Part shown: positions 2,984 through 22,342 of the stretch, piece by piece
Position numbering within the stretch: position 1 is the stretch's first letter
Layout of the letters: every line of letters starts with the position of its first letter
DNA from: Methanosarcinales archaeon Methan_01
Lineage (GTDB): Archaea; Halobacteriota; Methanosarcinia; Methanotrichales; Methanotrichaceae
Assembly (NCBI GenBank): GCA_001602645.1
Contig: LUYE01000035.1
Location: 1-35,265, forward strand
Reading direction: 5' to 3'
Length of the DNA: 35,265 nucleotides
The notes under the pieces: generated by a model
Seen by the model: the letters and a program-made list of their open reading frames with translations, nothing else
The model's database searches: none
What the model was told of the DNA's origin: nothing
Program-made: the position numbers and the translations under genes

Positions 2984-4255
2984 TCAAGCGCTCTCGATAA
3001 TCGGATATACAAAGACGCCGCTCTCGTACACATTCCAGCCCAAATTTTCGTGGAACTTGTCCAGATATTCTTGATGGATCTCTCTTGGGTCGATATCCTC
3101 GAAGAGGTCTGGATGGAACCATTTGGCCATGTAAGCGATCGATGCGGGCATACATGGCGGATAGAGGACATCGTAGCTAATTACGTATACTTTGCCCTCA
3201 ACAACGGCGTCGGTGAACTTCAATCCTTCACGATTCATGATCTCCGTTCTCAGCTCTTCCAAACCTGAGGAGTTCCCTTCTGCGTAACCTCCGCCCGAAG
3301 ATCCCCATCCAGCCATCTTGATTATAAACCCTGGATTCTGGGATACCACCCACTCTGGATCCACTTCAACCGCACCCGTCGCCAAGCCCGTCAGACCTGA
3401 TGATATGCTCTGCCCTCCTGCCATCTCTATCTGATATGTGGCTCCTCCTTCGGCGTTGAAGGTCTTGTATGGAACAGTAGCGCTCTCCTGGTAGACGGAC
3501 GGCCGCTCTTCCTCGGGTAGGTCCTTCACCCTCTCATAGATGCCACCCACATATTCCTCAAAAAAGTCTATGTAATCCTGGGCCTGTTCCCTTCGGTCCA
3601 GAATATATCCAAATTTCTTCATCTCATCCAGCATGATCCCGCCCCTGTAGAAGTCGAACCTCAGGATCGTAACCCCGGGGAGGTTATTCTCCATCTCCGA
3701 ATCTGCGGGGTTGTACCAAGAGTAGACGACTACAGAATCGGGATTTTGTGATAGAATCGCCTCGTAGTTGTCCCATGTACCTACGTTCGGAAGGTCTTTA
3801 AACTCGGGGAAGAGGGCTTTGGTGTAGTCCCTGTTGAAAAAATGCTCTCCCACGCCGACGACCTTGTCCATAGAATCGAGGATTCTCAAAGCCTCTGCCT
3901 GTTCCCCGACCCCGAGCATGACGATCCTCTCAACCGGCTTCTTCACCGTCACGACCCTCCCCGTGAAGTCCAAGTAGGTGAGTTCCGTCTCCTCGCCAGC
4001 AATTATTGCCTTGATTTGAGCTACGTCGTCTTCGTTGACCACTCCATCATAGTTGGCATCTGATAGTTCGGTCTCATCTTTAGTCCCCTGGATCACCCCT
4101 TGGACGTATCCGACATCGGCTTCGTCTATGGTCTCATCCAGGTTCGCGTTTCCAAACATGTTAAAGGTGTACTCTAGCCCGTAGACCGGCAAAGTCGAAA
4201 TGGTGAGGGAGATCGCAATGGCCAAAGCGGCCGAATAGGTGCGTATGTATGTCAC
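2984..4255 (-). CDS. Periplasmic-type substrate-binding protein with N-terminal dockerin-like calcium loops (copy 1)
   Basis: A secreted substrate-binding protein of the iron-siderophore/cobalamin (FecB/BtuF) class. I choose GTG 4255 over ATG 4306. The TATA box lies on top of the ATG, whereas the GTG follows a GGAG by 8 bases and gives a normal signal peptide. From GTG the protein has 423 residues. After the signal come two calcium-loop motifs, a degenerate one (about residues 36-47) and a clear DANYDGVVNEDD (66-77), spaced as in type I dockerins. The binding-protein fold follows, with VERIVMLG and a C-terminal IHQEY motif. There is no lipobox cysteine and no membrane anchor. No permease or ATPase is adjacent; the nearest matching ones are at 14064-15943. 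Two paralogues with the same architecture are at 9895 and 11307. Substrate unknown. Confidence 0.85.
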   Translation of the reverse strand: MTYIRTYSAALAIAISLTISTLPVYGLEYTFNMFGNANLDETIDEADVGYVQGVIQGTKDETELSDANYDGVVNEDDVAQIKAIIAGEETELTYLDFTGRVVTVKKPVERIVMLGVGEQAEALRILDSMDKVVGVGEHFFNRDYTKALFPEFKDLPNVGTWDNYEAILSQNPDSVVVYSWYNPADSEMENNLPGVTILRFDFYRGGIMLDEMKKFGYILDRREQAQDYIDFFEEYVGGIYERVKDLPEEERPSVYQESATVPYKTFNAEGGATYQIEMAGGQSISSGLTGLATGAVEVDPEWVVSQNPGFIIKMAGWGSSGGGYAEGNSSGLEELRTEIMNREGLKFTDAVVEGKVYVISYDVLYPPCMPASIAYMAKWFHPDLFEDIDPREIHQEYLDKFHENLGWNVYESGVFVYPIIESA

Positions 4256-4304
4256 GTCAAACTCTCCATTAATACGAGTAATTTTTCTTTTAGTTTTATT
4301 ATCC

Positions 4305-4313
4305 ATATATAAG
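4305..4313 (-). promoter_or_regulatory. TATA box for the binding-protein gene ending at 2984
   Basis: Minus-strand CTTATATAT. An archaeal start site about 25 bases downstream would fall near 4283, leaving a leader of about 28 bases with GGAG before GTG 4255. It overlaps the alternative ATG 4306, which therefore cannot be the main start of this transcript. Confidence 0.6.
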
Positions 4314-4367
4314 AGTACTCCAAACGTATGAATTATAGCAGGTAATTATTCGATGATGTTATACCAA

Positions 4368-4386
4368 ACCAATTGAAATAATTGGT
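4368..4386. promoter_or_regulatory. Inverted repeat upstream of binding-protein gene, possible operator
   Basis: Perfect 7-base arms ACCAATT / AATTGGT around a 5-base spacer, about 60 bases upstream of the TATA box. A regulator site is an inference from position only. Confidence 0.3.
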
Positions 4387-4465
4387 AGAATTGCATGGTA
4401 TCGGCCAATTCAGTACAAGGCTGAATAACTATTATATTTTCACTCAAACCTCTCCTGGAAGGTCT

Positions 4466-4711
4466 TTACCGCCGGATAGACGAAAAAGAGCAGAAATCCG
4501 GGATGACGATGAGAACCTTCAGAGGGCTCGATGGCGCGGCAGAAAAGGCGCCCCGGAGCCGCCCGACGGTGTAGGTAAGGGGCAGTATCCGACTTAAAAT
4601 ATGAAGCCCCTCGGGCATAGTGGATATCGGATAGACGACGCCGCGGAGGAAAAGCATCAGAAACCTCTGGAGGTGGAGGCGGATCTGAGCCTCAATAAAT
4701 TTTATAACCAT
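4466..4711 (-). pseudogene. Remnant of an ABC-2 type permease, C-terminal part
   Basis: An 81-codon frame encodes a segment typical of the last part of ABC-2 exporter permeases: a hydrophobic run, then YPISTMPEGLHILSRILPLT and YTVGRLRGA. This corresponds to the family pattern of a proline-rich turn, a PLTY motif and an R-G-A/V helix. Nothing of the N-terminal part or of a partner ATPase is visible upstream, and the sequence after the match (SAAPSSPLK onward) reads as drifted. It is a decayed exporter gene. The intact ABC-2 permease at 19722 is a different, complete copy of the same superfamily. Confidence 0.5.
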
Positions 4712-4986
4712 TTAATTTAGATATTAACTTTATAATATTGAATTTAGGATTCTATCAGCCATCACATATTAAAGATATTTACGTATATGCCGATAGACGG
4801 ATGGCTGAAATAAAGCTTGCAACAAAATTTGGATGTGGGGCGTTCCAAATGCGGCCATCCGGATTCGGAGCTCTTGGTCCACCTCGACTCCCAACGGCAC
4901 GGAAGGGGCCACCCCCGTAGGCCTCTCCCCGGCGGCGGCCCGGCTTGGAGACGAAGGTGGGCTTTGCGTCACCATAAATGAGCCGT

Positions 4987-5637
4987 TCATTTGAAGATCT
5001 CGCCCGTCTCCTTAGACCAGAGGAGGAGGTCGAGGTGGCCCATGGGGATGCCTGTCTTCTGCGAGAGCTCGATCATCCTCCGCTCGATCTCCAGGTATTT
5101 CTTCTTGGTAAGGGTGGTGGGGATCTCGTCGATCACCCCCAGAAGGAACAGGTTCTTGAGGATGTGCCGGTCGAGGATGGCGAGCTCCTCGCCGAGGCCG
5201 ATGTTTCTGAGGAAGTGGCCTGCCTCCTTGTAACCAAGGCCCTTGACGTTATCGACGAGCCACTCCCGGGCGGCTCGGGGGTCTGAGAACCCCCCCAGGA
5301 CGGATTTTATCTTTAAGCAGCCGTCCCGGGTGAATTGATTCCTGGCCGCGACTATGTAGCTAGCCTTCCTCTCCCGGAATCGGACGTTCAAGAGCTCATC
5401 TAATATCTCTTCGGGGCAGCCGGCGAAGAGGAGGTCGCAGCCTCTGAGCCTCTCTATGGCGGGCCAACAGATCCTAGCCCGAGATTGGGGTGTTAAGATG
5501 CAGAAGGCGAGCTCTGCGAAGAGGTCGCGGTCTGAGCCCGTATCCCAGATCCGCCTGAAGTCCGCAAGCCGGGCTTCGATCTTCTCCTTCTGACCCCGAT
5601 AAAAGCAGATGAGTTCATCGATATCGTCGGTTTTCAT
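4987..5637 (-). CDS. ogg: N-glycosylase/DNA lyase, archaeal Ogg2 type
   Basis: A 216-residue helix-hairpin-helix DNA glycosylase that removes 8-oxoguanine and cleaves the abasic strand. The sequence matches the short archaeal Ogg2 class. The hairpin reads VKGLGYKEAGHFLRNIG (about residues 131-147), with the Schiff-base lysine at K137. The catalytic aspartate D156 is in ILDRHILKNL, 19 residues later, the usual K-to-D spacing of the OGG superfamily. The C-terminus carries HLDLLLWSKETGEIFK, characteristic of this group. The N-terminal FAELAFCILTPQS segment is also typical. The length is normal and the gene is intact. A TATA box lies upstream at 5695-5702. Both neighbours are unrelated single genes, so it probably forms its own transcription unit. 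Confidence 0.93.
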   Translation of the reverse strand: MKTDDIDELICFYRGQKEKIEARLADFRRIWDTGSDRDLFAELAFCILTPQSRARICWPAIERLRGCDLLFAGCPEEILDELLNVRFRERKASYIVAARNQFTRDGCLKIKSVLGGFSDPRAAREWLVDNVKGLGYKEAGHFLRNIGLGEELAILDRHILKNLFLLGVIDEIPTTLTKKKYLEIERRMIELSQKTGIPMGHLDLLLWSKETGEIFK

Positions 5638-5694
5638 CCCGGCAAGATCGTCTTGGGGCGATAAGACGGTGTCGGACGGGTCGGAAATTTGCTT

Positions 5695-5702
5695 TTTATA
5701 TA
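5695..5702 (-). promoter_or_regulatory. TATA box for ogg
   Basis: Minus-strand TATATAAA about 58 bases upstream of the ATG at 5637. It would place transcription start near 5672 with a leader of about 35 bases. Confidence 0.5.
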
Positions 5703-5980
5703 TGGAGGTGAGACGCGGACTGGCCTGCCTGCTCGTCGATCCATCACCTACCAGAACATCCCAGCCTCCGCCATCGGTCCAACCCTCAGGTTCCAGCCTT
5801 TAAATCTGGACGCCATCCTGGGGCGCCTTCTGGGCGGAGACATCCACCGCCTAGCCGAAGATGGACATGAAGGAGGGGCAGCAGAGGCCGTGGCAACTAC
5901 AGTCGCCAAAGATCAAGATCCATACCGTTTTTATATGGAGATCCCCTGGAAGGAGGTCTCGTGGGTAGGAGGTCAATGGT
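5703..5980. other. Intergenic stretch with no recognised gene
   Basis: A frame on the plus strand crosses this stretch but has no recognisable protein family and runs into the antisense of the FmdE-like gene. A second TATA-like run (GTTTTTATATGG) lies near 5928-5939. A small RNA between the two TATA-like runs cannot be excluded, but no fold is evident. Confidence 0.35.
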
Positions 5981-6406
5981 TCAGATCAGGTCGAAGAGCT
6001 CCTCATCCCGCCTCTTCGATATCTCCCAGGCGAACTCCTCCAAAGAGGCGTATTTTCCTGCCTTTATCTCCTCCATCACCCCGTCTTTAACCTTCAAGGT
6101 CAGGCTCTTTCCATCGGCTGAGAAGGTCGCCTCCGCCCTACCGAGGTCGACGGTTTCGATGTTTCCCTTGCCCATGGTGCAGCCGGTGGAGATCTGGATC
6201 CCGTCCACGAGGCAGGAGATCGGCGGGATCGTACCGGTCTTGACCGTGGCTCCGATTTCCTTATGGCCGGATGATCCGAGGTCCCTCAGGGCAAAAAGTC
6301 CCATCCTGATCCCCAAAACCAGAAAGGGGCCCAGATGTCCGTGGAACTCCGTCCCCCGCACGATCAGGTCCCGGAGGGGGACATTCTCCGGGTCGATGGT
6401 CTTCAT
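5981..6406 (-). CDS. FmdE-domain protein (formylmethanofuran dehydrogenase subunit E family)
   Basis: A 141-residue protein from ATG 6406 (GTG 6424 would add six residues). It is built around the FmdE domain. The signature FHGHLGPFLVLGIRMG near the start and CLVDGIQISTGCTMGKGNI in the middle are the conserved metal/pterin-side motifs of the family, including the H-G-H and the DGIQ...TGCT cysteines. The C-terminal zinc ribbon found in many FmdE proteins is absent, so this is the short single-domain form. FmdE proteins are associated with molybdenum/tungsten formylmethanofuran dehydrogenases of methanogenesis, but many short homologues have no proven role. No fmd/fwd catalytic genes are in this window, so a direct role in that enzyme is not supported by context. 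Confidence 0.85.
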   Translation of the reverse strand: MKTIDPENVPLRDLIVRGTEFHGHLGPFLVLGIRMGLFALRDLGSSGHKEIGATVKTGTIPPISCLVDGIQISTGCTMGKGNIETVDLGRAEATFSADGKSLTLKVKDGVMEEIKAGKYASLEEFAWEISKRRDEELFDLI

Positions 6407-6464
6407 CTGCAAGTTGATCACCAATTTCTGGATATTCTTACGAAAAGCACGTTGAGAAGGGGAT

Positions 6465-6473
6465 CTATTTAAC
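6465..6473 (-). promoter_or_regulatory. TATA box for the FmdE-like gene
   Basis: Minus-strand GTTAAATAG, about 60 bases upstream of the chosen ATG. It predicts a transcript start near 6443. Confidence 0.4.
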
Positions 6474-6850
6474 TATTGTCGTTATAATTCCTCCTATATA
6501 TCGCATCCAAAAGCACGAAATTATATAATGTCCTTATCGAATGGGTGTCGAGACCGTTGGCTAGCGGAGACGTATTCTTGCCTTTCGCCCGGCGCTGCTG
6601 TCTATTGATTTGAACTATTCATCCAATTTTCAAATTAAATAGCAGCTCACTCAGATTTATCGAAATCCTTATTACAATAGATGATATCCTTATCTGACAG
6701 CATATTCGAACCTTGAAATTAAAAAGCCCATTTAATGTGGTATATTATGCCGGCGTACACGACGATTCATACAATTTACTGGGATATATTCCATCTGAAT
6801 GGGGTGGCTGGCTGCAGGGTGGCCTTCTGCATCATCCAGGAGGGGATCCT
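6474..6850. other. Intergenic region before the metal ABC operon
   Basis: No convincing gene. The plus-strand frame open from 6713 is only an upstream extension of the ATPase frame. A TATA-like GGGATATATTCC at 6781-6792 lies about 60 bases before the chosen TTG start and is the best promoter candidate for the operon. Confidence 0.4.
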
Positions 6851-7579
6851 TTGAGCATAATCGAGCTCAACGAGATTTATACGGCGTACGAGGGCGGCGA
6901 TAAACCCGTTATACGGGATCTCTCCCTCTCCGTAAAACCAGGCGAGTATGTGGTGATAGGCGGCCCCAATAGCGCCGGGAAGACGACGTTGCTGGAGTCG
7001 ATAAACGGCCTTATCAGGATCACTCACGGCAGCGCGACCGTCTGCGGCCTCGACCTCCGACGTTCCGGGAATGAAGTCCGAAGGAGGGTCGGATACGTAA
7101 TTCAGAACTTTTACTTCGACCCCTTTACTCCCTTCACCGTGGAGGAGGTGGTGATGATGGGGCGGTATGGTCGGATGGGACTCTTGAAGCGCCCCTCAAG
7201 ATCCGATTTCGAGGCGGTAGATAAGGCGATCCGCCTCGTGGGGATCGAGGAGCTGGCCGAGAAGACCATAGGGACGTTGAGCGGAGGCCAGCAGCAGAAG
7301 ACGATGATAGCCCACAACATCGCCAAGGAGCCAGAGGTGATGATGCTCGATGAGCCCTTCAGCAACCTTGACTTTAATGCGCGGGAGTATCTCCAGGGCA
7401 TATTCAAAAATATGGCCGGAAATGGTACTCCGATCCTGATGGTATCTCACGCCTTCGACGGCCTCCCCGAGACCCGAATCCATCTGGTGGTGATGAACCG
7501 GGGTCGGATCACCTACGACAATGTCTGCGATGCGGACGAGGTCGAACCCATTATTCGCGACGAGTGTGCGGTGGTCTGA
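6851..7579 (+). CDS. ABC transporter ATP-binding protein, zinc/manganese uptake type
   Basis: A 242-residue ATPase that energises import by the permease immediately downstream. I choose TTG 6851 because GGAGGGG lies 5 bases before it and the known fold starts there. The longer open frame to 6713 has no family match in its first 46 codons. The Walker A motif is GPNSAGKTT (about residues 38-46), the signature is LSGGQQQK and Walker B is VMMLDEP. The H-loop is VSHAF and the D-loop SNLD. The N in the P-loop position and the LSGGQQQK form are usual for ZnuC-like proteins. The stop codon abuts the permease ATG, indicating tight translational coupling. The metal transported cannot be told from the ATPase. 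Confidence 0.9.
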   Translation: MSIIELNEIYTAYEGGDKPVIRDLSLSVKPGEYVVIGGPNSAGKTTLLESINGLIRITHGSATVCGLDLRRSGNEVRRRVGYVIQNFYFDPFTPFTVEEVVMMGRYGRMGLLKRPSRSDFEAVDKAIRLVGIEELAEKTIGTLSGGQQQKTMIAHNIAKEPEVMMLDEPFSNLDFNAREYLQGIFKNMAGNGTPILMVSHAFDGLPETRIHLVVMNRGRITYDNVCDADEVEPIIRDECAVV

Positions 7580-8410
7580 ATGTTCGGGTTTCTCATCGAA
7601 AATAACGTCGTCTGCCATGCCGTCGAAGCGATGGTCTTCGCGTCGATAGCATGCGGCATCCTCGGCGTCATAATCTCCAGGATGAGCCTCTCATCCCTGG
7701 GCTTCACCATGTCCCATGCGGCCTTTGCCGGGGCTGCCATCGGTATGTTCCTCGGGATCGGGTCCCAGATGGCTGCCATATTCTTCAGCGCTTTTGTAGC
7801 TGCTCTCATCGGGCCTGTCAGCGACAAAGCCAAGATGGCCGCCGATGCGACCCTGGGGGTCCTCTTCGCCATGTCGATGGCTGTGGCCATATTCCTTGTC
7901 TCCTACATGCAGTACATGGGCCGAGGCCTCACCGCGACCAACCTTCTCTTCGGCAACGTCATCTCCCTTTATAGAGAAGACATCTATGCCCTGGCGGCGG
8001 TATCAGCGTTGACCGTCATATTCGTTCTTGCATTCTTCAAAGAGATCTCCGCCCTGATGTTCAACATGAAGATCGCCGAGGCCTCGGGGGTTCGGGTGAA
8101 GCTGGTGTATTACATCTTGCTCTTCATTGTCGCCATATCCGTATCCCTATCCCTCAATATCGTCGGCGGACTTCTGATCTTTGTCCTCCTGGTCACCCCA
8201 GCCTCCATCGCCAGCCAGTTCTGCTTCAACGTCAGGAGCATGTTCGTCGCAGCTCCGATGATAGCGCTTTCAGTTAGCGCTCTCGGCGTTTGGGCGGGTT
8301 TCAAGTTCACCTTGCCGATCGCGCCTCTTGTAGCGCTCCTGCTGACGTTCGTCTTTGCGATATCCGTAATCCTCTCCTTCAAGAGAAGGATAAATTATAA
8401 AAAATATTAA
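7580..8410 (+). CDS. ABC transporter permease, zinc/manganese type (ABC-3 family)
   Basis: A 276-residue integral membrane protein of the ABC-3 family (ZnuB/MntB). It has about eight hydrophobic segments. The family pattern SLSSLGFTMSHAAFAGAAIG near residues 35-54 is the first cytoplasmic coupling region, and EISALMFNMKIAEASGVRV (about residues 155-173) is the second, which contacts the ATPase. A late segment reads VGGLLIFVLLVTPASIA. The start codon follows the ATPase stop directly with no gap. The protein ends with a basic tail (FKRRINYKKY). The length is normal. Confidence 0.9.
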   Translation: MFGFLIENNVVCHAVEAMVFASIACGILGVIISRMSLSSLGFTMSHAAFAGAAIGMFLGIGSQMAAIFFSAFVAALIGPVSDKAKMAADATLGVLFAMSMAVAIFLVSYMQYMGRGLTATNLLFGNVISLYREDIYALAAVSALTVIFVLAFFKEISALMFNMKIAEASGVRVKLVYYILLFIVAISVSLSLNIVGGLLIFVLLVTPASIASQFCFNVRSMFVAAPMIALSVSALGVWAGFKFTLPIAPLVALLLTFVFAISVILSFKRRINYKKY

Positions 8411-8470
8411 TTATTTGTCGGTATGATTTGTTATAATTATATATTTAACTGTTGCGATTAATACAAAAAT

Positions 8471-8480
8471 GTTATATATA
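8471..8480 (+). promoter_or_regulatory. TATA box before the metal-binding protein gene
   Basis: GTTATATATA preceded by an A-rich BRE-like run. The predicted start, about 26 bases downstream of its centre, falls at the ATG 8502, so the transcript is probably leaderless. It gives the binding protein its own promoter inside the operon, allowing receptor excess over the channel. Confidence 0.6.
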
Positions 8481-8501
8481 TCGTAATACTTATTTCGATT
8501 T

Positions 8502-9383
8502 ATGGATACAAAGAGGTTCTACACCCTGATCATATTGGCGCTAGCGATCTTCTCGATCGCCCCGTCTTTCGCCGATCAGGCTCCTGAAAGGATAAAGATC
8601 GTATGCACCACCAGCGTCCTCATGGACCCGGCGACTTTCATAGGTGGCGATAAGGTCGAAGCGATATCCATCGCCGACCCGACCCTCTGCCCCCACCTCC
8701 AGGCCGACATAATCCCCAATCGGATACAGCTGAACATGGACTTCATCAAGAAGGCCGATGTCTTCATGGCTTACAACGACAACAATGATAAAAATATAAA
8801 TATGCCTGCCGTCGAAAATTTCATGGAAGCGAACGGCTTCGGATCCGTCGAGTGGAGGACGGTCTCCGACCCATCGAGGGGATGGAACACCCCGACGACG
8901 GCGAAGTTACTGGCGTCCGAGGTTTTTGGGTGGCTTGTGGAGGAAGATCCCGCCAACGAGGGGTACTACCAGGAGCGGTACGATGAATACGTTGAGAGCT
9001 TCGATGCCGTGGAGCCGACCGACGCCGAGAGGGAGCAGTTGAATCAGACCAAGGTTATCGTCATGCTCTGGCAGAGGGAGCCGGTGGAGAAGTGGCTCGG
9101 GATGGAGGTCGTCAACTTCTTCGCCCCCGAGTTCGTCATGAACGGCACCAAGACCGCGGAGAAGGTCGTAGATGACATCATCCTAGACCCAGAAAAGTAC
9201 GCTGATGTCGAGTATGTGATAGAGAATATGCAATCGGGGGAGCTCGGCAAGGGGATCGAAGAGGCGCTCCTGGATAGAGGCATAAATGCAGAGCGGGTGA
9301 TATTTACAAACTTCCCGAGGTCCATATTGGGCGTGGATACCATACCCCAGGTTCTGAGCTACAATAAACAATTGGTCCTCTAA
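8502..9383 (+). CDS. ABC transporter substrate-binding protein, ZnuA/TroA class with atypical ligands
   Basis: A 293-residue secreted binding protein, third gene of the metal-type uptake operon. The signal peptide (residues 1-24, ending SFADQ) is cleavable and lacks a lipobox. The fold is the two-lobe cluster A-I type: IKIVCTTSVLMDPATFIGGDKVE opens lobe one, a single rigid helix region follows, and VIFTNFPRSILGVDTIPQVL closes lobe two. Only one canonical metal histidine is obvious (CPHL, about residue 66). The usual second and third histidine motifs are replaced by AYNDNN and WNTPTTA. The ligand may therefore be a metal with different coordination, or a complex. There is no ribosome binding site, which agrees with a leaderless message. 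Confidence 0.82.
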   Translation: MDTKRFYTLIILALAIFSIAPSFADQAPERIKIVCTTSVLMDPATFIGGDKVEAISIADPTLCPHLQADIIPNRIQLNMDFIKKADVFMAYNDNNDKNINMPAVENFMEANGFGSVEWRTVSDPSRGWNTPTTAKLLASEVFGWLVEEDPANEGYYQERYDEYVESFDAVEPTDAEREQLNQTKVIVMLWQREPVEKWLGMEVVNFFAPEFVMNGTKTAEKVVDDIILDPEKYADVEYVIENMQSGELGKGIEEALLDRGINAERVIFTNFPRSILGVDTIPQVLSYNKQLVL

Positions 9384-9475
9384 AATGCCGGTTTTCTCCC
9401 CCTCGATCCCCTCCACCATGAGGCTGCCACCGCCGGACGGGGGTGTACATGGGGAGGGACCTCGGATATCTGATG

Positions 9476-9780
9476 GGCGGGGTGGAGAAGGCCCTCCACA
9501 GAAGCCTCGGTGACGTCTCGGACCTGATGGGGTCTCCGAGGGAGCGGTGGGAGAGAATTCGGGAGATTCTGGTGGCGGTGGGGCTGGAGGAGGTCCTCGT
9601 CCTCGACGAGCCGACGTCGGCCCTGGACGTCTCCATCCAGGCCAGATCCTCCATCTGTTGCAAGATCTCCAGAGGGAGATGGGGTTGGATTATCTCCTCA
9701 TCTCCCACCACCCCGAGGTGCTGGCCTCCTTCATGGCCCAGGAGGTGGGCCCTCCTCCGGGGAAGGCGACTGAGGCCTCT
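9476..9780 (+). pseudogene. Remnant of an Opp/Dpp/Nik-type ABC ATPase
   Basis: Two frames together recall the middle and end of an oligopeptide/nickel-type ATPase. One frame reads IREILVAVGLEE joined directly to VLVLDEPTSALDVSIQA (Walker B and D-loop). The next frame continues ILHLLQDLQREMGLDYLLISHHPEVLASFM (H-loop region). Walker A is missing, the LSGGQ segment between the two blocks of the first frame is deleted, and there is a frameshift near 9645. A functional protein is therefore excluded. It sits between the metal uptake operon and the dockerin-bearing receptors. Confidence 0.7.
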
Positions 9781-9894
9781 TGAAGGCGGAGAGGAGCGGG
9801 AATGCAGTCCTCTGATGAGCGATGACCTCTCCTTCAACGATGGAGGTGACCCTCGGGAGGCCCACCAGCAAAATAAAAAAATATCGCTCCTCGT

Positions 9895-11238
9895 CTAGAA
9901 GCTCACGTTCTCCCGGTCGGGAATCCCCGCCAGCTGGCCGTCGCCCTTCTCTATCGGCGGATAAAGGAAGACCCCGTCCCGATCGAGGTCGAAATCCTCT
10001 CCCAGGAACCTGGTAATGTACTCCTGGTGGATCGCCTCGGGGTCGAGGTCGGCGAATGCCTCGGGGAGGAAGACTTTTGCCATGTAGGCGGCGCCGATGA
10101 GGCCGCCACTGGCGTCATTTCTGAAGGAGCCGCTCCCTAAGTAGACCCTCCCCTCCTTCACCGCCCTCATCTCGGCGAGCTCTGGCCGGCTGGTGAAGGC
10201 GTCTCTTGCGGCTCTGATCTCCTCGGGGTCGGTGGCATCGTAGCCGTTGGCCGGGTCCAGGGAGAGGCCGCTGTAGGTGTGGGCCACCAGATGGAGGTAT
10301 ATGAGGTCGGGGTCCGCCTCTATCACCCACTCGGGATCGACCTGGATGTTGTACGAGGAGCCGAAGAACTCGGGAAGACCCTCAGCCATCACCTTGACCC
10401 CGGTGAGAATCGACATCTGGGTGAGGGTGTCGATCATGGAGTAGGTCCGGAAGGTGCCGGTGTCCAGGTGGGCGTAAGGGTAAGCGCAGATAAGGACCTT
10501 CGGCTGCTCCTCCTCGGAGACCCCAGCGGCCCTGGACCTTATCTCCTCCACCCATCCCAGGTTCCAGCTGATGAACTCCTCCGCCCTCTCCTCCTCGTCG
10601 AGGATGTAGCCGAGCTTCCTCACTCCGTCGATATATCTGGAGTTCTCGGGGTCGCTTATATCCGGAAAGTATAGGCCGAGGAAGACGACGTCCACCCCAG
10701 GAAGTTTCTCTGCCTTGGTCTCGATGTTCATGGGCGAGAAGGTGAGGAGGAGGTTCGGGTCTGGGCTGAGGACCGCCTCGTAGTCCGGCTCGTTCATCTG
10801 GCCGACGTTCTTCCTCTTGGCGAGGTCCGGAAACTCTGCTCCGCTCTTGGCGACGGCGTAGTCGACCCCCACCACCTTATCTTTGGAGTTGAGGATGGAG
10901 ACGAGCTCCGCGTTGTCCAGGTACTCGACGACGATCCTCTCTACGGGCTTGTGGACTGCGACGGGGTCTCCGTTTCCGTCCAAGATGTTGAGGACCTTCT
11001 CCTCTCCATTGATGATAGCCTCAATCTGGGCTATGTCCTCCTCGTCGATGGCGCCGTCCCGGTTGGCGTCGGCAAGGTCCGTCCTCTCGTTATTTCCGTC
11101 GATGATCCCACGGACGTAATCCGTGTCCAGCTGATCTATCGTATCGTCCATGTTGGCGTTTCCGAAGATTCCCAGGGCGGCGGACGCCGGCGTCGCCGCC
11201 AGCGCCAGGGCGACCAGAGCGAAGATAGCGATCTTCAT
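9895..11238 (-). CDS. Substrate-binding protein with dockerin-like calcium loops (copy 2)
   Basis: A 447-residue secreted protein of the FecB/BtuF class. The signal peptide is residues 1-20 (ending PASA). Two calcium loops follow: a degenerate one at residues 27-38 and DANRDGAIDEED at 57-68, each followed by a short helix, as in type I dockerins. The ligand-binding fold begins at about residue 90 (KPVERIVVEYLD) and ends with a conserved AIHQEYITRF segment and a VFLYPPIE strand. There is no lipobox or membrane anchor. It lies 68 bases downstream of the paralogue at 11307-12611 on the same strand, so the two are probably cotranscribed. Its natural permease partner is probably the FecCD permease at 14064. 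The extended acidic tail after PPIE is not shared with the paralogues. Confidence 0.88.
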   Translation of the reverse strand: MKIAIFALVALALAATPASAALGIFGNANMDDTIDQLDTDYVRGIIDGNNERTDLADANRDGAIDEEDIAQIEAIINGEEKVLNILDGNGDPVAVHKPVERIVVEYLDNAELVSILNSKDKVVGVDYAVAKSGAEFPDLAKRKNVGQMNEPDYEAVLSPDPNLLLTFSPMNIETKAEKLPGVDVVFLGLYFPDISDPENSRYIDGVRKLGYILDEEERAEEFISWNLGWVEEIRSRAAGVSEEEQPKVLICAYPYAHLDTGTFRTYSMIDTLTQMSILTGVKVMAEGLPEFFGSSYNIQVDPEWVIEADPDLIYLHLVAHTYSGLSLDPANGYDATDPEEIRAARDAFTSRPELAEMRAVKEGRVYLGSGSFRNDASGGLIGAAYMAKVFLPEAFADLDPEAIHQEYITRFLGEDFDLDRDGVFLYPPIEKGDGQLAGIPDRENVSF

Positions 11239-11306
11239 AAGGTCACCACCAATCCGCTCATCTGCCTTTCAAGGGGGGATCTGCTTAAAAGAGGCTTCCG
11301 GGCCAT

Positions 11307-12611
11307 TCAGGCCACCTCTGGATAGTAGAAGGTATTCTTATCCGCGAGGTCTTTTGATATCCCCATCATCTCCAGGTACTCCCGGTGGGCTTCCTTGGGG
11401 TTCAGGTCTTCGAAGACCTCCGGGTAGAACCACTTAGCGAGGAGCAGAAGGGCCGACGGATAGTTGGGGGTGACGGCATGATCGTTGGTGATGATGTAGA
11501 TCCGGTCGTTCTTCACAGCATCGACACCGTCGAACCCCGGAAGGCTCCGGATCTCGTCGGCGTAGCCCCGCAGGAGGGAATCGTCCGCGTAGCCCCGCAG
11601 GAGGGAATCGTCCTCGTTCTCGTAGGGCCTCACCCCTGATCCCATGGCCCTGCCGACGATAACCCCTGGGTTCTGCTCCAGAACCCACTCCGTCTCGATC
11701 TCTCCGTACTCTTCGTCGGTCTCCATGTAGAGGGGGAGGTGGCCGACGGCGACGTTCACCCCGCCCGCCAGCTCAATAAGGTTTCCGGCAGGATGATTCT
11801 TTCCGATGGCGGTCCTGGAGGAGATCGTCTCGGACCCCTCCGGGGTTGACTCCAGGTACACCCTCACCCTCTCCTCTTCGGGGATCCCGGAGGTCCTGGT
11901 CTCCACTGCGTCGACGTACCTGTCGTGCCACTCCTGATATTTTTTCGCCTCCCCTCTCGCCTCCAAAAGGTATCCGAGGATCGATACGCAGTCCCTGATG
12001 GAGTCGATCCCACACGGTCCCCCTCCGGCACAGTCGATCCGAAGGACGGGGATTTTTGAGGGGAGCTTTTCATCGAGGTCTTCCTTGGTTGGATAGAAGG
12101 TATAGGCTATTATCAGATCCGGGTCGAGGGAGACTATCGCCTCGATGTCGACGTCGGCGCCGTTTCCGATGTTCTTCTTCTTGCAGATCTCCGGGAACCT
12201 GCTCCCCTGCCTCTCGAAGGTGTCTCTCACCCCGGTCACCTTATCTGCGGCGTTCAGGATCTGGAGGATCTCCGCGCACTGGTGGTTGTAGATGACGATC
12301 CTCTCCACCGGCACCTTGACGGCGACGGCGTTCCCATCAGAATCGATCACCTTGATCTCGGTAGCCGTGCCATTGATGATCTCCTCCGTCAGCCGTATGT
12401 CCTCGTCGTCGACCTTGCCATCGCCGTTGACGTCGGCAAGATCGGTCATATCCTGCGTCCCGTCCATGATGCCGCGGGCGTATTCGATATCTATCTCGTC
12501 AATGACGTCGTCCATATCGGCGTTGCCGTAGATATGGAGGGTGAAATCGGCTGCAGATATCCCCAAGAACAGGCATAACGCCAAGACTGATGCCAGCATC
12601 TTCCCTTTCAT
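11307..12611 (-). CDS. Substrate-binding protein with dockerin-like calcium loops (copy 3)
   Basis: A 434-residue secreted protein, paralogue of the genes ending at 2984 and 9895. The signal peptide is residues 1-21. Loop one is degenerate (residues 30-41). Loop two, DVNGDGKVDDED (60-71), is a textbook dockerin/EF-type calcium loop. The FecB/BtuF-like fold starts at about residue 95 (VPVERIVIYNHQ) and ends with AHREYLEMM and FYYPEVA. An internal nine-residue tandem duplication (LLRGYADDS twice) comes from a 27-base duplication at 11561-11614. The start ATG has AAGGAG upstream. It is divergent from the transporter operon starting at 13020, and the shared 408-base region holds an inverted repeat. 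The ligand is probably a corrinoid or iron chelate, by family only. Confidence 0.88.
   Translation of the reverse strand: MKGKMLASVLALCLFLGISAADFTLHIYGNADMDDVIDEIDIEYARGIMDGTQDMTDLADVNGDGKVDDEDIRLTEEIINGTATEIKVIDSDGNAVAVKVPVERIVIYNHQCAEILQILNAADKVTGVRDTFERQGSRFPEICKKKNIGNGADVDIEAIVSLDPDLIIAYTFYPTKEDLDEKLPSKIPVLRIDCAGGGPCGIDSIRDCVSILGYLLEARGEAKKYQEWHDRYVDAVETRTSGIPEEERVRVYLESTPEGSETISSRTAIGKNHPAGNLIELAGGVNVAVGHLPLYMETDEEYGEIETEWVLEQNPGVIVGRAMGSGVRPYENEDDSLLRGYADDSLLRGYADEIRSLPGFDGVDAVKNDRIYIITNDHAVTPNYPSALLLLAKWFYPEVFEDLNPKEAHREYLEMMGISKDLADKNTFYYPEVA
11561..11614. repeat. 27-base tandem duplication inside a coding region
   Basis: Two adjacent 27-base units differ at one base (26/27 identical). 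The duplication keeps frame and adds nine residues to binding protein copy 3. Confidence 0.9.
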
Positions 12612-13019: not shown

Positions 13020-14054
13020 TTGACGATATCTCGATATATTGCCATCATTGCCCTCTGCCTCTACCTGGCGATACCCGCCCTGGGGGCCCCGATGGAGGTG
13101 GAAGATAACCTGGGACGGACCGTGACGATAGACCAGCCCTGCCAGAAGATCGTCTTTCTCGTGGAGAACGCCCTGAACACGTACTACTCGATAGGCGATC
13201 CCGAGACGGTCCTCGCCATAGGCGACAACATCTGGAAGAGGGAGCTTAAAGAGGATTTCTTCAAGGCGGTGGACCCAAAGTTCGACGATAAGGTGAGGAT
13301 CGGCTTCGATGCCGGCCTCGTCAGCCTCGAGACCCTGGCGGCTGAGGACCCAGACCTCGTCGTCCTCTGGGCCACGTCCCCCGAGGACGAGAACCTCAAT
13401 GCGATCACGGAGACCTTGAGGATACCCGTCTACGCCGTCTTCATAACCTCCAGCGGCGACATGTATAAACAGGTGAGGGACATGGGGACCATCTCCGGCA
13501 AGACTGACCGGGCCTCCGAGGTGGAAGCCATCATGATGAGCTACGTTGAGGAGGTGACCTCCGCAACAGAGGGGATACCCGACGAGGATAGGCCGAAGGT
13601 CTACTGGATGTGGAGTGACGTCCTGGGGACTGCCGGGAGAGAGAGCGGCTTTGACGACCTGATATACCAGGCTGGCGGGATCAACGTCATGAACTACTGG
13701 GATAACGATGCTAGCTATGTCGAGCATCCCACCGTCCCCCTGGAGACCCTGATCAACCTCAACCCCGACGTCATATACATGTGGTACAACGAGAAGCTGG
13801 ACCCCGAAGACGTCATCCGCGGCACTGAGTTCGCCGGATGGAGGGATATCAATGCCGTAAAGACCGGCAGAGTCTACGAGATCGAGAACCCCTTCCTCTT
13901 CGACGCCTTCTCTCCCCGGATGCCGATGGCCCTGATGCACCTCGCCAAGAACATCCAGCCCGAGCTCTTCGCCGATATGAGCATAGACGAGAGGATGGAC
14001 GGCTTCTTTGGGGAGATGTACTCGGTCCACTATCCGGGATACGCAGCCATGTAG
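13020..14054 (+). CDS. Substrate-binding protein without dockerin loops, FecB/BtuF class
   Basis: A 344-residue secreted receptor, first gene of the plus-strand transporter operon. It starts at TTG 13020, with GGAGGAGGAG five bases upstream. The signal peptide is residues 1-22 (ending ALGAP). The fold begins directly after it with MEVEDNLGRTVTIDQPCQKIVFL, the usual opening of iron-chelate/cobalamin binding proteins, and ends with MALMHLAKNIQPELF. Unlike the three paralogues in the window it lacks the calcium loops, so it is the conventional receptor of the set. A six-codon mini-frame (ATG 13003 to TGA 13023) overlaps its start and is probably just the ribosome-binding region. The permease follows after nine bases. 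Confidence 0.88.
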   Translation: MTISRYIAIIALCLYLAIPALGAPMEVEDNLGRTVTIDQPCQKIVFLVENALNTYYSIGDPETVLAIGDNIWKRELKEDFFKAVDPKFDDKVRIGFDAGLVSLETLAAEDPDLVVLWATSPEDENLNAITETLRIPVYAVFITSSGDMYKQVRDMGTISGKTDRASEVEAIMMSYVEEVTSATEGIPDEDRPKVYWMWSDVLGTAGRESGFDDLIYQAGGINVMNYWDNDASYVEHPTVPLETLINLNPDVIYMWYNEKLDPEDVIRGTEFAGWRDINAVKTGRVYEIENPFLFDAFSPRMPMALMHLAKNIQPELFADMSIDERMDGFFGEMYSVHYPGYAAM

Positions 14055-14063
14055 GTGGCGTTG

Positions 14064-15116
14064 ATGAAGATCGATTATGGACGGCGCGAATTGGACGCGG
14101 TCCATAACTCTTCCTTTATTCGCAAAAGAGTTCTCATCGTCCTCTTCCTCCTGATGCCCATCCCGGCCTTCCTGATATCGATGACCGTAGGGACCTTTCC
14201 GATAACAACGGGGGAGATTGTAGGGGTGATCTCCACAAGGCTCGGGTTGGAGATGGGACACCCCTCCGTCTACGAGACGGTGATATTCCAGGTGAGGCTT
14301 CCCAGGGTCCTCCTGGCCATGACGGTCGGTTCGGCCTTATCGGCCTCCGGGGCTGCCTTTCAGGGGATATTCCGAAATCCCCTGGTAGATCCCTACATCC
14401 TCGGCCTCTCCTCCGGCGCCGCCTTCGGGGCCGCCCTCTCCCTGGGGGTGGTCCCCTGGATTCCGGTGCAGGTGTCGGCCTTCGTCTTCAGCCTCCTCGC
14501 CGTGGCGGTCGCCTACACCATGGCCAGGACTCAAGGCAGGACCCCCGTCGTCTCTCTTGTCCTATCCGGGGTGATCGTCTCGGCGGTCTTCTCGTCCCTT
14601 CTGGCCATCGTCCAGATAGCCGTAGACGAGAGGGCTCTCCAGAGCATCGTCTACTGGATGATGGGGAGCATGAACACCGCGAGCTGGTCGAAGCTTGAAA
14701 GCTCCTTGCCCCTAGCCTTCCTGGGATGCCTCGGCATCCTGACCCTCCGATGGAGGCTGAACGTCCTCGCTCTTGGGGACGAGGAGGCCCGCTCGGTGGG
14801 GATGAATCCTGAGAGATACAAGGGCATATTTGTGATCTCTGCCGCCCTCGCTTCCTCCTCGGCCGTGGCGGTGGCGGGGATCATCGGGCTATTGGGGCTG
14901 ATCGTCCCCCATATGCTCCGGATGATCTTCGGGCCAGATCACAGGACCCTTATACCCCTCACCATAACCTTCGGGGCGACCTTCATGGTCCTGGTCGACG
15001 ATCTGGCCCGGGCAGCCCTTGGCTTCGAGGTCCCCGTGGGGATCATCACCACCCTCATCGGGGCACCCTTCTTCGCATATCTCTTGAGACGGACCCGGGC
15101 GGGGGGCTGGGAATGA
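14064..15116 (+). CDS. ABC transporter permease, FecCD/BtuC family
   Basis: A membrane permease of about 350 residues for iron-chelate or corrinoid import, forming a homodimer channel. ATG 14064 is preceded by GGTGG; GTG 14055, directly after the receptor stop, is an alternative adding three residues. Family motifs are intact: LPRVLLAMTVGSALSASGAAFQ in the first membrane pair, NPLVDPYILGLSSGAAFGAA (the FecCD hallmark), VYWMMGSMNTASW, and near the C-terminus the coupling helix region GLIVPHMLRMIFGPDHR. About nine or ten hydrophobic segments are visible. It overlaps the ATPase start by four bases (ATGA), so the two are coupled. It is the only FecCD permease in the window and probably serves several receptors. 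Confidence 0.94.
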   Translation: MKIDYGRRELDAVHNSSFIRKRVLIVLFLLMPIPAFLISMTVGTFPITTGEIVGVISTRLGLEMGHPSVYETVIFQVRLPRVLLAMTVGSALSASGAAFQGIFRNPLVDPYILGLSSGAAFGAALSLGVVPWIPVQVSAFVFSLLAVAVAYTMARTQGRTPVVSLVLSGVIVSAVFSSLLAIVQIAVDERALQSIVYWMMGSMNTASWSKLESSLPLAFLGCLGILTLRWRLNVLALGDEEARSVGMNPERYKGIFVISAALASSSAVAVAGIIGLLGLIVPHMLRMIFGPDHRTLIPLTITFGATFMVLVDDLARAALGFEVPVGIITTLIGAPFFAYLLRRTRAGGWE

Positions 15117-15943
15117 GCGGCATAGAGGTACGGGATCTGAGCTTCGGCTACAACGGGATTCTGATCCTCAACGGGATCGACCTATCCATTGATAGGGGGT
15201 CGACGGTGACACTACTGGGGCCGAACGGCTGCGGCAAGACCACCCTTCTGAAGACGATAAACGACCTCCTGAAGCCCGCCTCGGGGTCGGTGGTCATCGA
15301 CGGAAAGCTCGCCTCCACCATGGGGGCGGGGGAGCTGGCGAGAGTTCTGGGATACGTCCCCCAAGACCACCGATCTTCCTTTCCCTTCACATCCTTTGAC
15401 ATAGTCCTCACCGGGAGGATCCCCCACATCTCCACCTTCTCGTCTCCGGGGGCCAGGGACTTCGAGGAGGCCCACCGGGCCCTGGAGCTGGTGGGGGCTG
15501 GCCATCTATCAGACCGTCCCTACACCCAGATCAGCGGCGGAGAGAGGCAGATGGTGATGATCGCAAGGGCCCTCGCCCAGGACCCCCATTTTCTCCTTCT
15601 GGACGAGCCGACCTCTTACCTTGACTTCAAAAACCAGGTGAAAGTCCTGAAGACCATCCGGTCAATAGCCCTCCGGGAGAGGGTGACGGTGATCATGACC
15701 CTCCACGACCCAAACCACGCCCTCGCCTACTCCGACCGGGTGATCCTCATGCGACGCCTCCCATCGGAGGCGGATAAAGCAGGTCCGCATTTGGGTTTGA
15801 GGGGAGGCGGCCCCTCCATGGGGAACGTGGTGGCTTACGGCCCGCCGGCAGAGGTGATGACCCCGGAGAATATGGAGAAGGCATACGGTATGAAGGTGGA
15901 GATTTTCGAGCATAACGGCCGAAGGATCATACTCCCCGTTTAG
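15113..15943 (+). CDS. ABC transporter ATP-binding protein, FecE/BtuD family
   Basis: A 276-residue ATPase driving the FecCD permease. Walker A is GPNGCGKTT (residues 36-44), the signature ISGGERQM and Walker B FLLLDEPTSYLD. The H-loop is in MTLHDPNHAL. The C-terminal domain after the H-loop has an inserted glycine-rich loop (around GPHLGLRGGGPSMG) before the usual VVAYGPPAEVMTPENM strand, making it slightly longer than typical. The start overlaps the permease stop by four bases. The CooC-like gene follows after 56 bases. Confidence 0.93.
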   Translation: MSGIEVRDLSFGYNGILILNGIDLSIDRGSTVTLLGPNGCGKTTLLKTINDLLKPASGSVVIDGKLASTMGAGELARVLGYVPQDHRSSFPFTSFDIVLTGRIPHISTFSSPGARDFEEAHRALELVGAGHLSDRPYTQISGGERQMVMIARALAQDPHFLLLDEPTSYLDFKNQVKVLKTIRSIALRERVTVIMTLHDPNHALAYSDRVILMRRLPSEADKAGPHLGLRGGGPSMGNVVAYGPPAEVMTPENMEKAYGMKVEIFEHNGRRIILPV

Positions 15944-21481: not shown

Positions 21482-22342
21482 TTACCTATCTAGCCTTGCC
21501 GTCGCCGCCTTCTTCACGCTTTGATCCCCATCCTCCACGAGAGCTCTCACGACCTCTTCAGGAGTGGACGGATTCTTCGCCACCGCCTCCCTCACCTTCC
21601 AGGCCCAGTCTCCAGAGAGGGCCACCAGGGTCTTTTGATCAGCGTTCGGGTTCGACGCCACAGCCGCCCGAATCTCGCCGTCCCGGTCGGCGGCGAGGCT
21701 CGCGAGGGAGGATGCAGACGTCTTTTTGTTCATCGCGACGGCGGCCCGGACGTCCTGGATCCGGTCGGCGGCGAGGTAGTCCAGGAGCTCGACGGTCGCC
21801 TGCGAGCTTCTTGCCGCCGCCGTCCTGACGGACCAGGATGGGTCGACCCTCCTATCGAAGAGGACGTCCTTGGGGACCTTCGGGTTTGAGACGGCGGCGG
21901 CCCGGACTCCCTCGTCTCCGTGGTCGGCGAGGGTCCTATTCACCTCCTCAGGGGTGTTCGGGTTTTTGGCCGCCGCCTCCTGGACGATGTACCGGTTCTT
22001 GGATAGAGAGTAGTCGAAGTCCATCGTCACGTCGGAGGATAACTTCGTCAGGGCCCCGGGGGACGTCTTCTGATTCAGGGCGACGGCGGCCCGGACGAAG
22101 CCGTCGCCGTCTTCGGATAAAAATTCGAGGATATCGCCATCGGCCCGGAGGCTCGCCGCCACCGCCTCCCGGACCCACTGGACCTGGTCATTCGCCAGGT
22201 GCCGCAGGATCTCGATCGGCGCGCCGGGGTTGATGGCCACGGCCCTCCGGACGTGCCAGTCCCAGTCTCTCGCCAGAGCCTCCAGCTCCTTCGCCTCAGT
22301 CTTCGGATCAGAAGCCGTCTTCTCCTTTCCCCAGTCTCTCAT
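21482..22342 (-). CDS. Leucine-rich-repeat-variant (LRV/HEAT-like) protein
   Basis: A 286-residue soluble protein built from about ten repeats of 23-25 residues. The consensus is roughly V-R-x-A-V-A-x-N-P-x-T-P-x-E-V-L-x-x-L-A-x-D-x-D, the LRV repeat form first described in nitrogen fixers. Clear units are VRRAVAINPGAPIEIL, VRAAVALNQKTSPGAL, VQEAAAKNPNTPEEV, VRAAAVSNPKVPKDVL and VREAVAKNPSTPEEVV. There is no signal peptide or membrane segment. LRV proteins form right-handed superhelices and are thought to bind proteins or nucleic acid, but no substrate is known. LRV proteins with an N-terminal iron-sulfur cluster exist; this one has no cysteines for that. It converges with the exporter operon. 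Confidence 0.85.
   Translation of the reverse strand: MRDWGKEKTASDPKTEAKELEALARDWDWHVRRAVAINPGAPIEILRHLANDQVQWVREAVAASLRADGDILEFLSEDGDGFVRAAVALNQKTSPGALTKLSSDVTMDFDYSLSKNRYIVQEAAAKNPNTPEEVNRTLADHGDEGVRAAAVSNPKVPKDVLFDRRVDPSWSVRTAAARSSQATVELLDYLAADRIQDVRAAVAMNKKTSASSLASLAADRDGEIRAAVASNPNADQKTLVALSGDWAWKVREAVAKNPSTPEEVVRALVEDGDQSVKKAATARLDR

Follow-up and report, generated by a model that had tools for sequence, protein, structure and literature searches.

How are the substrate-binding receptors of archaeal ABC transporters kept at the cell when they carry no membrane anchor, and what is the role of two calcium loops placed directly after the signal peptide of such receptors? The question is raised by three receptors encoded in a 35,265-nucleotide stretch of DNA (contig C32, analysed over its whole length and here called the window) from the 2.6 Mb, 99% complete genome of Methanosarcinales archaeon Methan_01. 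The host, a sheath-forming and methane-producing archaeon of the family Methanotrichaceae, groups with Methanothrix/Methanocrinis, as judged from the named relatives of its receptors. A sequence-only reading had proposed that the loops form a dockerin-like module, by which the receptors are docked to a cohesin-bearing protein of the cell surface or sheath.

The tagged receptors and their genomic family

All three receptor genes are located on the reverse strand: receptor 1 at 2984–4306 (Pfam PF01497, E 1.7e-11), receptor 2 at 9895–11238 (E 1.3e-16) and receptor 3 at 11307–12611 (E 7.9e-23). In each of them a hydrophobic signal-like segment is followed by a module of approximately 60 residues with two EF/F-hand loops, and then by a Peripla_BP_2 fold of the FepB/YiuA type. 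The modules, likewise read on the reverse strand, cover positions 3968–4171 in receptor 1 and 10978–11178 in receptor 2 (profile A1, E 7.6e-33 and 8.8e-32, each copy being itself among the profile rows), and 12342–12548 in receptor 3, as placed by residue counting, the sequence and an alignment of 40 paralogs. Residue counting puts the two loops of receptor 1 at about 4115–4150 and 4025–4060, and the first loop reads N-A-N-L-D-E-T-I-D-E-A-D or its equivalent in the window receptors. In a structure search with the AF2 model of receptor 1, module included (pLDDT 91.7, pTM 0.90), the nearest folds were YiuA and FepB-like iron-chelate receptors.

A module-free Peripla_BP_2 receptor on the forward strand (13020–14054; PF01497, E 8.9e-17), having neither lipobox nor C-terminal helix, provides an internal control within the window. 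It is followed by an open reading frame named by resemblance as a FecCD-like permease (14055–15116, forward strand), which is a candidate for a transporter shared by the receptors, and by the ATPase partnering it (15113–15943). The window also contains ZnuCBA-like zinc/manganese uptake genes (6713–9383), a fragment resembling an oligopeptide ABC ATPase (9443–9898; DEPTSALD motif), which is apparently a truncated gene, and a gene (21482–22342) for a protein that consists nearly throughout of short repeats, which look helical and, by eye, HEAT/LRV-like.

The three receptors are members of a large family. There are 69 Peripla_BP_2 matches in the genome and about 65 of these proteins are at least 300 aa in length. 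A complete module is present on 40 full-length receptors, eight paralogs have half a module at the same place, the second loop being stripped of calcium ligands (VPGDADGDMIVSDEELELAEQSYSEGKITSDELEEIKHIHE), and 17 receptors of more than 300 aa have no recognisable module, some of these possibly being truncated gene calls. Searched with profile A1, the genome yields 43 module copies (E <= 1e-5), mostly at 1e-31 to 1e-36 among the matches listed, the three window copies included; the profile consists of 20 sequences, window and genome copies among them, so that high scores within the genome are given by construction.

Many of the genes form long arrays, with 14 module receptors at C78:55479-75010 and 11 on C23. 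Array neighbours comprise a CobN-type chelatase, a BchI/D-like AAA-VWA protein, nitrogenase-like (PF00148) proteins, a radical SAM protein, a methyltransferase and FecCD permeases. Genes of the chelatase, nitrogenase-like, NifH-like, BchI/D-like, radical SAM and methyltransferase kinds are interleaved with the arrays, at C23:16146-19961, C23:30621-34322, C23:35533-39204, C75:7038-10613, C34:60432-64066 and C70:5779-7794. The interleaved genes possibly represent an uncharacterised tetrapyrrole or metallophore pathway, and the array neighbours point to chelated metals or tetrapyrrole-like compounds as the receptor ligands. At the loci read, FecCD-like permeases are clearly fewer than the receptors.

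Across genomes, all 183 assessable module carriers belong to this one receptor type, in a set of loci gathered via the module rather than the receptor and mostly originating from one family. Fusions of this module to the receptor are also found in Methanospirillum stamsii (L216, L254), whose genus is only distantly related, though it too comprises sheathed methanogens. Two contigs labelled Bacteroidales bacterium (L182 and L192; JAAYDO010000166.1 and JAAYDO010000158.1) encode receptors near-identical to, e.g., C78:72507-73772, and probably come from a methanogen, as contaminants in a bacterial MAG.

Dockerin-like character and constraint of the module

The window receptors match the Pfam dockerin family PF00404 below its 22.9-bit cut-off, with E 0.022 for receptor 1, no match for receptor 2 and E 0.18 for receptor 3 (match spanning 12336–12518). 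This cut-off is reached by 3 of the 42 matches in the genome and passed by copies in 24 of the 50 family genomes, the best having 32.7 bits. In a search of PDB sequences with the module profile, in which the matches are independent of the genome copies, dockerins came top (5lxv_B, E 4e-5, then CelS 2mte, endoglucanase SS 1daq and others). The calcium ligands at loop positions 1, 3, 5, 9 and 12 are kept in 36–40 of the 40 paralogs per column. As a family, the module is dockerin-like beyond chance, and the two calcium loops next to the signal peptide are confirmed in all three receptors.

With the type I dockerins (PF00404) of clostridial cellulosomes and Ruminococcus (5lxv_B), the module shares two 22-residue calcium F-hand repeats with internal symmetry. 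It differs from them in being N-terminal, in having no flexible linker and in the uneven conservation of its recognition positions. In addition, varied partner domains are usual, if not required, for type I dockerins, whereas the module is confined to a single type of ABC receptor.

The module is also considerably more conserved than the rest of the protein. Median pairwise identity among the 40 paralogs is 70% in the module, which has no gaps or indels, vs. 31% in the receptor remainder, and nonsynonymous divergence (pN) is 0.18 vs. 0.48 in the receptor domain. Since synonymous divergence (pS) is near saturation in both (0.74 in the module and 0.80 in the receptor domain) and module pS is not below 0.25 in any pair, gene conversion or recent homogenisation can be ruled out, and the conservation of the module is due to purifying selection. 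Near-fixed residues that are not ligands include E at loop position 10 of both repeats, Y25, G28, Q55 and E57, several conserved residues being neither calcium ligands nor obviously part of the core. In type I dockerins cohesin is recognised through positions 10, 11, 17, 18 and 22, position 11 being a classic one. In the paralogs positions 10 and 22 are conserved, 17 and 18 are mixed, and position 11 ranks with the most variable columns in both loops.

Such a module might be a calcium-folded, type I dockerin-like tag common to a large set of envelope receptors whose ligands are chelated metals or tetrapyrrole-like compounds. It would bind a partner, with calcium gating the binding, and as a common docking handle it would hold many receptors at one site of the envelope, near a few shared FecCD permeases. 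Docking of the receptors to some common partner is the reading we tentatively favour, while holding it to be quite uncertain.

Next to it, and somewhat more doubtful, stands the possibility that the module has no partner at all and is an integral, calcium-stabilised N-terminal subdomain which serves as a cap or brace of the N-lobe, or as a spacer between receptor and membrane. Its restriction to one receptor family (183/183) would be expected of such a part, the partly variable classic recognition positions are compatible with it, and so are the eight half modules, which sit at the same place with a second loop devoid of calcium ligands. In the AF2 model the last module helix passes into the first receptor strand after about 4 residues with no flexible linker; this, too, is in line with a subdomain, as is the pTM of 0.90, a whole-chain score from which the packing of the module on the receptor is not read directly. 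The modelled junction itself fits an integral subdomain and a rigid docking arm equally. Against a structural brace speak the 17 receptors of the same genome without a recognisable module (some perhaps truncated gene calls), a degree of constraint on the module far above that on the fold to be braced, and conserved residues with no ligand or obvious core role.

An S-layer protein domain with a cohesin fold

Docking to a common partner presupposes a protein to which the module can bind, and the genome was searched for one by profile searches. No cohesin (PF00963) was found over the Pfam cut-off. By itself this absence would have ended the docking idea, and it was a sub-threshold match that led further: the best PF00963 match at a loose threshold (E 0.08; C34:40834-40974) falls within the C-terminal region of a large ORF, in a domain spanning C34:40648-41010. 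Other sub-threshold matches are inside CARDB/Ig-like surface proteins and were dismissed on visual inspection. The large ORF encodes an S-layer protein with two PF07752 stretches (E 8e-123) and a TIGR01567 match, in which the PF07752 domains are followed by the matched domain and then, by eye, a hydrophobic C-terminal helix and RRR.

The domain of this genome scores 15.6 of the 24.1 bits of the PF00963 cut-off, and because the curated cut-off is missed, it is here termed cohesin-fold and not a member of PF00963. Among 26 members of the domain family eight match PF00963 at E<=1 (best 4.9e-4), while any other family is matched by at most four, and an independent scan gave E 0.002 for the copy of one relative (G009). 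The domain profile retrieved five PDB sequences, four of them cohesins, at weak E-values of 0.013 to 2. When the AF2 model of the domain (pLDDT 86.5) was compared with the PDB by Foldseek, the top 44 matches were all cohesins (E 3.4e-11 to 3e-5), the archaeal 2xdh included, with query TM-scores of about 0.56–0.76. We conclude that the S-layer protein carries, close to the membrane, a domain with the jelly-roll fold of cohesins; the genome has no cohesin by Pfam and one cohesin-fold domain beside a membrane helix by profile and structure.

The domain has the fold of the cohesins (PF00963; e.g. Archaeoglobus fulgidus 2xdh), from which it differs by being shorter (about 120 aa), below the Pfam cut-off and present in a single copy next to a membrane helix. 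Its host protein resembles other Methanosarcinales S-layer proteins (PF07752/DUF1608; TIGR01567) in the tandem PF07752 domains and the hydrophobic C-terminal helix, and is distinguished by the extra domain before the helix. This domain is found in 27 of the 50 family genomes, in one of them as a fragment, and two more have it with an internal deletion. Its membrane-proximal placement would suit pairing with the receptors, and it may be the partner of the module, or one of several, although we regard this as rather unlikely.

If the two were an obligate pair, they should be found together. Among the 50 family genomes, 16 have both, 11 the domain only (no module at E 1e-5), 18 the module only and five neither, which amounts to no co-occurrence (Fisher odds ratio 0.40, p 0.23, in draft genomes and by a test that ignores kinship). 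Because the genomes are drafts and phylogeny is uncorrected, this result speaks against an obligate domain-module pair and not against all pairing. Modules without an intact domain are numerous in G006 (12), G010 (nine), G018 (seven) and G012 (six), and in the cohesin-negative genomes examined the matching S-layer protein is there, but shorter, with the domain absent or partly deleted. In G012 (C71, L168) and G013 (L053) most of the domain is deleted internally with the flanks intact, and six and four module receptors, respectively, are kept. The major S-layer protein of the cohesin-negative relatives, approximately 1100 aa in size, was considered as a cohesin and rejected, having only weak A2 matches, which fall in PEGA/CARDB-like regions. 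The sole family genome with a Pfam cohesin above the cut-off has it on another ORF (G047:C48:17193-17477, L094) and is without module receptors. The proposed docking to a cohesin-bearing surface protein is thus borne out insofar as an S-layer candidate exists; the expectation that domain and module go together is not, and modules persist where the domain is missing.

The lack of co-occurrence would be natural if the module docked elsewhere, i.e. to a permease, to another receptor by module-module pairing or to a sheath protein, while the S-layer domain serves other ligands. The modules in the sheathed Methanospirillum stamsii would agree with this, and its relative M. hungatei has nine dockerins and one cohesin (PMC5244752, Table 2); receptor gene transfer would equally account for Methanospirillum, however, and no specific partner candidate was found. 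We consider docking elsewhere unlikely, with a probability that overlaps that of docking to a common partner, the mechanism being the same.

Anchoring of the receptors and the meaning of the proposed docking

That the three window receptors have neither a lipobox nor a C-terminal helix was confirmed. Indeed, none of the 40 module-bearing receptors has a C-terminal helix or a convincing lipobox; five of them have a Cys motif, but it falls within the hydrophobic core and is too close to the N-terminus to qualify. The best NCBIfam match of receptor 3 and of the 13020–14054 receptor, far below cut-off, is TIGR04281, a PGF-CTERM-anchored archaeal receptor; members of that family are anchored through a sorting signal at the C-terminus, whereas the window receptors have no C-terminal helix. 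The further premise, that the cell could not keep its receptors if the module were absent, is undercut by the module-free receptors of the same genome, none of which has a C-terminal helix (0/17) and 15 of 17 of which have no lipobox. As these controls likewise lack anchors, missing anchors do not alone call for docking, and anchor loss is weakened as an argument for it. It would be enough if the S-layer and sheath retained the receptors or if the signal segment stayed uncleaved. The most improbable of the explanations holds that no anchor is needed, the receptors being retained by an uncleaved signal segment or in a quasi-periplasm under S-layer and sheath with the module as a leftover or slight stability tuner; the anchor-free control receptors and, by eye, the ZnuA-like protein (8502–9383), which shows neither lipobox nor C-terminal helix, agree with it, but a leftover would not face the strong purifying selection seen on the module.

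Dockerins as receptor anchors in archaea, thought unusual in the sequence-only reading, are not unusual in kind. In ANME archaea ABC receptors are common among dockerin-bearing proteins, and dockerin/cohesin pairs have been suggested as the means by which proteins are fixed to the outer layer (Chadwick et al., 2022, PMC9012536). The ANME receptors are alike in having a dockerin on archaeal ABC substrate-binding proteins with a proposed S-layer attachment; they are of the NikA/OppA and TroA types and accompanied by annotated cohesin scaffoldin-like proteins (PMC9012536), whereas here there are approximately 40 FepB/YiuA-type receptors and no cohesin above the cut-off. Methanosaeta concilii was reported to have 17 dockerins and no cohesins (PMC5244752, Table 2), and granule EPS was found to contain the S-layer protein of this species as well as its ABC transporter receptors (PMC6367495), which does not distinguish between the hypotheses. 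A literature search on Methanothrix dockerins gave nothing specific. Receptors with dockerins had therefore been described before in ANME archaea, as had the occurrence in M. concilii of dockerins with no cohesin; new, as far as the literature searched shows, are how large and how constrained the tagged receptor family is, and the S-layer cohesin-fold domain missed by domain annotation.

In favour of docking count the near-invariant ligands, purifying selection, conserved non-ligand residues, dockerin matches in the PDB, the S-layer domain and the excess of receptors over permeases at the loci read. Against it count the lack of co-occurrence, the confinement to one receptor family, the missing linker, the variable position 11 and the module-free receptors without anchors. 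In its most specific form, docking would place approximately 40 metallophore or tetrapyrrole receptors on the inner side of the Methanothrix S-layer via one plug and socket of the cohesin-dockerin type, feeding a few shared permeases, an arrangement slightly less probable again than the S-layer domain being the partner.

The S-layer cohesin-fold domain gives orphan dockerins such as these a concrete candidate partner. Should docking fail, the family would show that some function other than the binding of cohesins can keep dockerin modules under strong conservation. If it is true, cohesin-dockerin pairing would organise the nutrient receptors of a dominant acetate-using methanogen, with the socket residing in the S-layer protein beside the membrane.
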